From: a bacterium
Lineage (GTDB): Bacteria; Myxococcota; UBA727; JAUIJE01
Assembly (NCBI GenBank): GCA_030431455.1
Contig: JAUIJE010000004.1
Span: 62,001 to 126,000 of the forward strand
Length of the DNA stretch: 64,000 nucleotides
Reading direction: 5' to 3'
Below are positions 29,060 to 30,438 of this stretch, piece by piece. Position 1 is the stretch's first letter. Every line of letters begins with the position of its first letter. The position numbers and the translations under genes are program-made. Below the pieces are notes generated by a model, which was given only the letters and a program-made list of their open reading frames with translations, was not told the origin of the DNA and did not search any database.

Positions 29060-29269
29060 CTACAGCCGGGACAAAAACGCCTCGGCGGTCAGGCGCTCGG
29101 CCTCGTCCGGCACCCAGCGGAAGCCCGCGAAGAACGCCGCGACCGGGCGTTCGGCGTCCTCTTGCCCCAGCCCGACGAGGGAGGCGTGGGCCGGCACCGC
29201 GACCGCGGCCAAAGGGCCGCCGACCGGGCCGGGGATCGAACGGTGCACGGGCGGGGCGCCATCAGGCAT
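29060..29269 (-). CDS. Small protein coupled to the PYP-V4R gene
   Basis: A 69-residue soluble protein (starts MPDGAPPVHRS, ends TAEAFLSRL). Its ATG overlaps the end of the V4R reading frame by eight bases, so it would be translated by coupling. The central segment (PLAAVAVPAHASLVGLGQEDAERPVAAFFAGFRWVPDEAERL) has the look of a short folded domain. I do not recognise it. Only the coupling and codon pattern support it. Confidence 0.45.
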   Translation of the reverse strand: MPDGAPPVHRSIPGPVGGPLAAVAVPAHASLVGLGQEDAERPVAAFFAGFRWVPDEAERLTAEAFLSRL

Positions 29270-30345
29270 GGCGATCTTCTTTCAGCCCGGCCAGGGTCCG
29301 GGCCACGTCCCCGTCGTTTTCGGCCAGCAGCTTGCCGAGCACCTGCTTGCGCGGCGCGGCCACGGCCACGAATTGACATTGGGCGAAGCCTTGGGTCTTA
29401 CAGCAGACCTCGCGCACCACGATGACCTTGTACGCGAGGTGGGAAAACACCGCGGCAAAGAAGCCCGCAAGCAGTTCGCACCGGGGGACCTCCGACGTCC
29501 CCACCGCCTCGGCCAGGCCGTTGCGCGCGAGCCCGATCACAAATGCCCCTGCATCGTCCGCGGGGCTGAAGTCCACCTGCAGCCGCCCCCAACCGTGGCG
29601 GGTGAGGTAGTCGGCGATGAACGACACCGCGTCGCGCATGGACAGATCCCGCATGGTCTTGCCCGTCGCTTCCAATGCCTCGGTCTCGAGGTCCACCACC
29701 GCGAGCCGGCCCCACTTGGTGCCCCACTCCCGGCAGAACAGGTTCCACGCTTTGGGCGCCATCTTGTCCCAGGTGTGGCGGAGCGACGCGAAGAACATCG
29801 GGGATGCCATCACCGACCGCCGCGCGCCGGCGTCGCGCAAGATGCCAAACGCCGCCTCGTCGGGCGCGAGTTCGGCTTGGAGGGGGGCGAGGAGTTCTTC
29901 CTTTTGGTCCGCGCGCCGGTCCATGAACCGGGTGCGGTTGATGCAAAGGTAGAGCCGGTCGGGCCGGCTGCCCCGCACGATGTCGACCTCGACCTCCTGG
30001 GCGCCAAAACTTGAAGTCGAAGACGTAGCTGAAGCGCACCGGGCGCTCGGAGGGGGCGGCGGCAAACGCGCGAACCCGGCCCTCGAACGCCTCGGTGGCG
30101 GTGCACGGGGCGACCTGTCGGAAGAAGTGCAACCCGACGACCTGGTTGCGGTCGAGCCTGGCCAAGCGCGCTTCCGCGAGGTTGTACCGCTCGACGTGGC
30201 CGGTCTGGTTCAGGCCGATGACGCCGAACGGGAGCCGATCGAGCGCTTCGTCGCTCAGCTCGTCGAGGCGGCGGATGTCGACGTCGGCCCCCGGGCGGGC
30301 GGGATCGCCTTCCGCCGGTTGTTCAAGCTGCGCCAACGACACCAT
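29262..30345 (-). CDS. Photoactive-yellow-protein-like PAS domain fused to V4R domain, interrupted by an apparent frameshift
   Basis: Two overlapping frames read as one 360-residue protein if one T is removed from the T4 run (minus strand) at 30009-30006. Residues 27 to about 150 align with photoactive yellow protein: LPFGVIGLNQTGHVERYNLAE, VVGLHFFRQVAPCT, FSYVFDFKF then GAQEVEVDIV and RLYLCINRT. The PYP chromophore-pocket residues Tyr42, Glu46 and Cys69 correspond to Tyr54, Glu58 and Cys81, with identical spacing (4 and 27). PYP Thr50 and Arg52 are replaced by Ala and Leu. The remainder is a V4R (4-vinyl-reductase-like) ligand domain with the terminal pattern CELLAGFFAAVF...VREVCCKTQGFAQCQF. 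The ATG at 30343-30345 has GGAGG upstream. The domain pairing suggests a small-molecule or light sensor without its own output enzyme. Whether the frameshift is real, programmed or a sequencing error is open. Confidence 0.75.
30006..30009 (-). other. Frameshift site in the PYP-V4R gene
   Basis: On the minus strand the coding sequence reads AAG TTT TGG CGC in the PAS frame. Moving one base forward after the Phe codon gives AAG TTT GGC GCC CAG GAG, which restores PYP-like residues on the other side. The T4 run allows tRNA-Phe to re-pair one base downstream, so a plus-one programmed shift is conceivable. A homopolymer miscall or a genuine inactivating insertion fits equally well. Confidence 0.8.
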
Positions 30346-30413
30346 AGAGACCTCCGCGAGGCTTGGATGTCGCCGGGTCGCGGCCGGTCACAAGCGGCGC
30401 CCAACCGCCAAAC

Positions 30414-30438
30414 AAAAAGGGCCCCGTGACGGGGCCCT
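30414..30438 (-). terminator. Intrinsic terminator after pnp
   Basis: On the minus strand: stem AGGGCCCCG / CGGGGCCCT with loop TCA (30438-30418), followed by TTTTT (30418-30414). It is 23 bases past the pnp stop and separates pnp from the PYP-V4R operon. Confidence 0.93.

Follow-up and report, generated by a model that had tools for sequence, protein, structure and literature searches.

The gene considered here lies on the minus strand at 29262..30345 of the window (the whole 64,000-nucleotide stretch of Myxococcota DNA that was analysed). It runs from an ATG at 30345 to a stop codon at 29262-29264 and, when read through one frame change, encodes a protein in which a photoactive yellow protein (PYP) domain is followed by a V4R-type domain. 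A Shine-Dalgarno-like GGAGG, recognised from the sequence, is located on the same strand at 30351..30355, 5 bases before the ATG. Further upstream, after the polynucleotide phosphorylase gene, a terminator-like hairpin with a T tail (30418..30438, minus strand) separates that gene from the PYP-V4R gene, which is thus probably transcribed on its own. At the other end, a 69 amino acid open frame (window 29060-29269, minus strand) overlaps with the last bases of PYP-V4R; this frame has no Pfam match and no similar frame is found beside other fusions.

As assembled, the PYP-V4R gene is made up of two overlapping frames (30345-29398 and 30065-29262, both minus strand). The frame changes by one base at a TTTT run (30006..30009, minus strand) inside the PYP domain, where the relatives are uninterrupted, and reading through this point yields a single 360 amino acid protein. 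GC3 is 0.90 before the run and 0.87 after it, with codon-position GC alike on both sides, and the DF-x-FGAQ motif at the site is unbroken in 13 of 13 relatives, which argues for an assembly error or else a recent lesion as the cause of the break. The frame change within the PYP domain might also be read as a sign that the gene is decaying in this organism, but we think this unlikely: the lesion is single and falls in a homopolymer, codon-position GC is intact either side of it, every functional residue is kept and a ribosome-binding site is present. In addition, a related gene (L005) is broken too, at a G run, which fits with errors in the assembly of draft genomes.

The PYP (PAS) domain comprises residues 24-140 (29925..30276, minus strand) and is recognised by the family model TIGR02373, by matches to PYPs in the PDB, by the fold model and by comparison with relatives. 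The earlier note had proposed that the PYP chromophore triad is retained with its spacing, and this stands: Tyr54 (30186-30184), Glu58 (30174-30172) and Cys81 (30105-30103, all minus strand) are the equivalents of PYP Tyr42, Glu46 and Cys69, with identical spacing of +4 and +27. The remaining pocket positions—Ile31, Phe62, Val66, Ala67, Pro68 and Phe96—are kept also. PYPs in the PDB match the window protein at E values of about 1e-14 to 2e-15, far beyond chance, whilst TIGR02373 (NCBIfam photoactive yellow protein) matches it over model positions 13-123 (E 3.8e-23) with 81.9 bits, short of the equivalog cut-off of 143.05 bits. This cut-off does not mark a family boundary, since it is reached by no PYP in 195 Myxococcota genomes and the model picks up only a small subset of PYPs (PMC9664959). 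At PYP positions 50 and 52, the Ala and Leu that the earlier note had listed as deviations are nothing of the kind, as both are the consensus of 984 PYPs (PMC12826048).

The V4R-type domain (residues 150-335; 29340..29897, minus strand) is identified by Pfam, by a PDB profile match and by the fold model. Its assignment, also proposed earlier, is borne out by the Pfam V4R core (PF02830; residues 275-327, 29522-29364, minus strand), which scores 41.1 bits, above its gathering score of 31. In a PDB search, a profile of the C-terminal halves of the fusions matches the sensor domains of MopR, DmpR/CapR and PoxR, together with archaeal MJ1460. The zinc ligands of the DmpR/MopR family have been described, as has the His/Trp dyad that binds phenol (PMC7264223, PMC10715001). 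MopR residues Cys155, Glu178, Cys181 and Cys189 align without gaps with Cys289, Glu312, Cys315 and Cys323 of the window protein, giving a predicted zinc site at 29376..29480 (minus strand), and of the 11 sequences that extend this far, 10 have all four ligands. In one fusion (L056, genome G108), the V4R half lacks the last two zinc cysteines after VVREAALGAQ and continues into unrelated sequence; this may be a degenerate or frame-shifted copy.

Phenol sensing by a MopR-type His/Trp dyad was considered and rejected, as the phenol-anchoring Trp is not conserved but lies opposite Arg in the window protein and in most fusions; its position was determined by profile-based comparison to five XylR/MobR-type sensor domains, in which the dyad His falls outside the aligned region. 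If the V4R domain has a ligand, its mode of binding thus probably differs from that of phenol in MopR. Membership of two other V4R-containing groups was likewise rejected: TIGR02019, the BchJ 4-vinyl reductase model, gives 18.7 bits against a cut-off of 74.3, and the chain ends after the V4R domain with no Pfam match to the AAA+ sigma-54 or DNA-binding domains of XylR/DmpR regulators.

The predicted fold agrees with both assignments. An AlphaFold2 model based on a 14-row alignment has a mean pLDDT of 86.1 and a pTM of 0.75. The first Foldseek matches are PYP crystal structures, superposing at 1.2-1.4 Å rmsd over 111 columns; next, for the second half of the protein, come the sensor domains of MopR, PoxR and DmpR (E about 2e-6 to 1e-5). 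PYP Cys69 and Cys81 are aligned in the superposition, which suggests that Cys81 points into the PAS pocket, with the orientation of its side chain judged from the sequence alignment and the backbone superposition.

A scan of GTDB genomes and a search of the phylum identified 13 further fusions, in several Myxococcota families. Among them, L062 is truncated where its contig stops, the V4R half of L049 is broken and L005 is interrupted at the G run mentioned above. Genome G171 has a PYP-V4R gene (L054, contig C120) and a close copy of the N-terminal portion of this gene (L066, contig C798); in the copy, the frame is interrupted at the chromophore Cys motif, not far from a contig end. As a fragment running out of frame at this motif, L066 was excluded from the set. 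It had been asked of the homologues whether they retain the Cys and Glu, and in fact Tyr, Glu and Cys are present in every one of the 14 fusions, which also conserve the other pocket residues (the equivalents of Phe62, Ala67, Pro68 and Phe96). Position 42 is mostly Phe in free-standing myxobacterial PYPs. A maximum-likelihood tree built from 52 PYP domains groups the fusions into one clade with support of 97/97, and the fusion label requires one change on the tree, compared with a mean of 12.6 for shuffled labels. This points to a fusion that arose once and then diverged within the phylum.

We consider PYP-V4R likely to be a blue-light receptor in which the ligand-type second domain relays the signal to a partner protein. 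The N-terminal PYP domain of this cytoplasmic receptor would bind a p-coumaroyl thioester at Cys81 and absorb blue light, whereupon photoisomerisation of the chromophore and proton transfer from Glu58 would loosen the domain. Loosening could then alter the packing or the dimer state of the attached V4R domain with its predicted zinc site. The V4R fold is pocket-bearing and may bind a second ligand, probably a hydrophobic one. Having no kinase, cyclase or DNA-binding part, PYP-V4R must act on a separate partner, to which the signal would pass. Counted against a light receptor are the broken frame in this assembly, the lack of a visible tyrosine ammonia-lyase or TIGR02372 match in the host and the lack of a conserved gene neighbourhood.

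The earlier note reported neither a tyrosine ammonia-lyase nor a p-coumarate-CoA ligase gene in the window, and in the host genome (96.9% complete, with one PYP) neither a tyrosine ammonia-lyase nor a PYP-type ligase was identified. Its sole aromatic lyase, and thus the only candidate for a tyrosine ammonia-lyase, scores over the cut-off for histidine ammonia-lyase and carries an SH signature, so the candidate was rejected; TIGR02372, the PYP-type 4-coumarate-CoA ligase model, has no match in the genome at E <= 1e-30. The absence of the ligase says little, since in 195 Myxococcota genomes, many of which have PYP, TIGR02372 never scores above its cut-off. Several other fusion hosts encode a second aromatic lyase, below the histidine ammonia-lyase cut-off. 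Histidine and phenylalanine ammonia-lyases are possible sources of p-coumarate (PMC9664959), and the chromophore could be supplied from free coumarate in plant matter or by another enzyme. Elsewhere in the phylum, a free-standing PYP and a divergent aromatic ammonia-lyase-like gene are separated by ~2 kb (G178:C487; L050, L118) and may form a chromophore-supply pair, and a genome with several PYPs has an aromatic ammonia-lyase ~2 kb from a 4-coumarate-CoA-ligase-like gene (G055:C17; L098, L116).

The lack of an identified lyase or ligase would also fit a protein that works independently of light, its PYP pocket sensing thiols or redox state, for example, or accommodating some other thioester-linked or non-covalent ligand; for certain PYPs in which residues are altered, redox switching has been suggested (PMC9664959). 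We think this improbable. The proposed redox PYPs have lost or changed residues of the triad that every fusion keeps, p-coumarate is obtainable from the environment or from the other lyases just mentioned, and the TIGR02372 result extends to PYP-encoding genomes across the phylum.

The fusion loci have no conserved neighbourhood apart from a kinase gene at two of them. In L004 and L005, which belong to distant lineages, a kinase-only Ser/Thr kinase gene lies directly upstream of PYP-V4R on the same strand (L004:3951-4874 and L005:3877-4899), with gaps of 12 and 53 bases, respectively, and the two kinases share 46% over 276 amino acids. PYP-V4R might accordingly serve a soluble Ser/Thr kinase, encoded by a neighbouring or distant gene, as its regulatory subunit, with light and the V4R ligand jointly setting the activity of the kinase, as the position and similarity of these two kinases would suggest; we hold this to be quite unlikely, given that no similar kinase gene adjoins the window gene or occurs in the flanking sequence examined at the other fusion loci and that, Ser/Thr kinase genes being common in myxobacteria, two such neighbours may be due to chance. 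Very doubtful, too, is a more elaborate scheme in which PYP-V4R is a two-input logic receptor, reading light at the PYP domain together with a small molecule bound in the pocket of V4R, perhaps the p-coumarate-type precursor, and passing the result in trans to a kinase-only Ser/Thr kinase.

Fusions of this kind have been described before. Dohmen et al. (J Bacteriol, December 2025; PMC12826048) list 20 PYP-V4R proteins, always with the PYP domain first, and note that such proteins bring two inputs together but have no output domain. The earlier note regarded a light or ligand sensor joined to a second ligand domain as an unusual module; the fusion itself is upheld by the family models, the predicted fold and the 13 relatives, but it was not unreported. 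With an N-terminal PYP and a C-terminal V4R domain in one chain and no output domain, the window protein belongs to this known group and may be among the 20; its domain order, lack of an output domain and conserved Cys69 are common to the published fusions, and no difference from them is apparent. The main text of that study presents the 20 cases without analysis of a zinc site, a fusion clade or kinase neighbours. To this, the present analysis adds that the predicted zinc site is intact, that the phenol Trp has been lost, that the fusions go back to a single origin and that a kinase gene adjoins them in two lineages. How PYPs relay the light signal is a long-standing gap, and a conserved single-origin Myxococcota fusion with an intact chromophore site, a predicted zinc-holding sensor domain and sometimes an adjoining kinase gene offers concrete proteins and partners with which to test such a relay.

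The PYP of Halorhodospira halophila has the triad spacing, the VAPCT motif and the fold in common with the window protein (rmsd about 1.3 Å, 32% identity) but is a single domain, and its Thr50, Arg52 and Met100 are replaced by Ala, Leu and Phe in the fusion. The best PDB sequence match (E 2.1e-15) is the PYP domain of Rhodospirillum centenum Ppr (1mzu), likewise part of a multidomain protein; Ppr, however, runs on into a phytochrome and a histidine kinase, whereas the window protein runs on into V4R alone. With the sensor domains of MopR, PoxR and DmpR (XylR-type), the window protein shares the V4R fold and all four zinc ligands. It differs from these regulators in having no AAA+ or DNA-binding domain, in the Arg that replaces the phenol Trp in most fusions and in the MopR-type pocket, where the equivalents of Tyr161, Tyr165 and Tyr176 are Phe, Val and Val.
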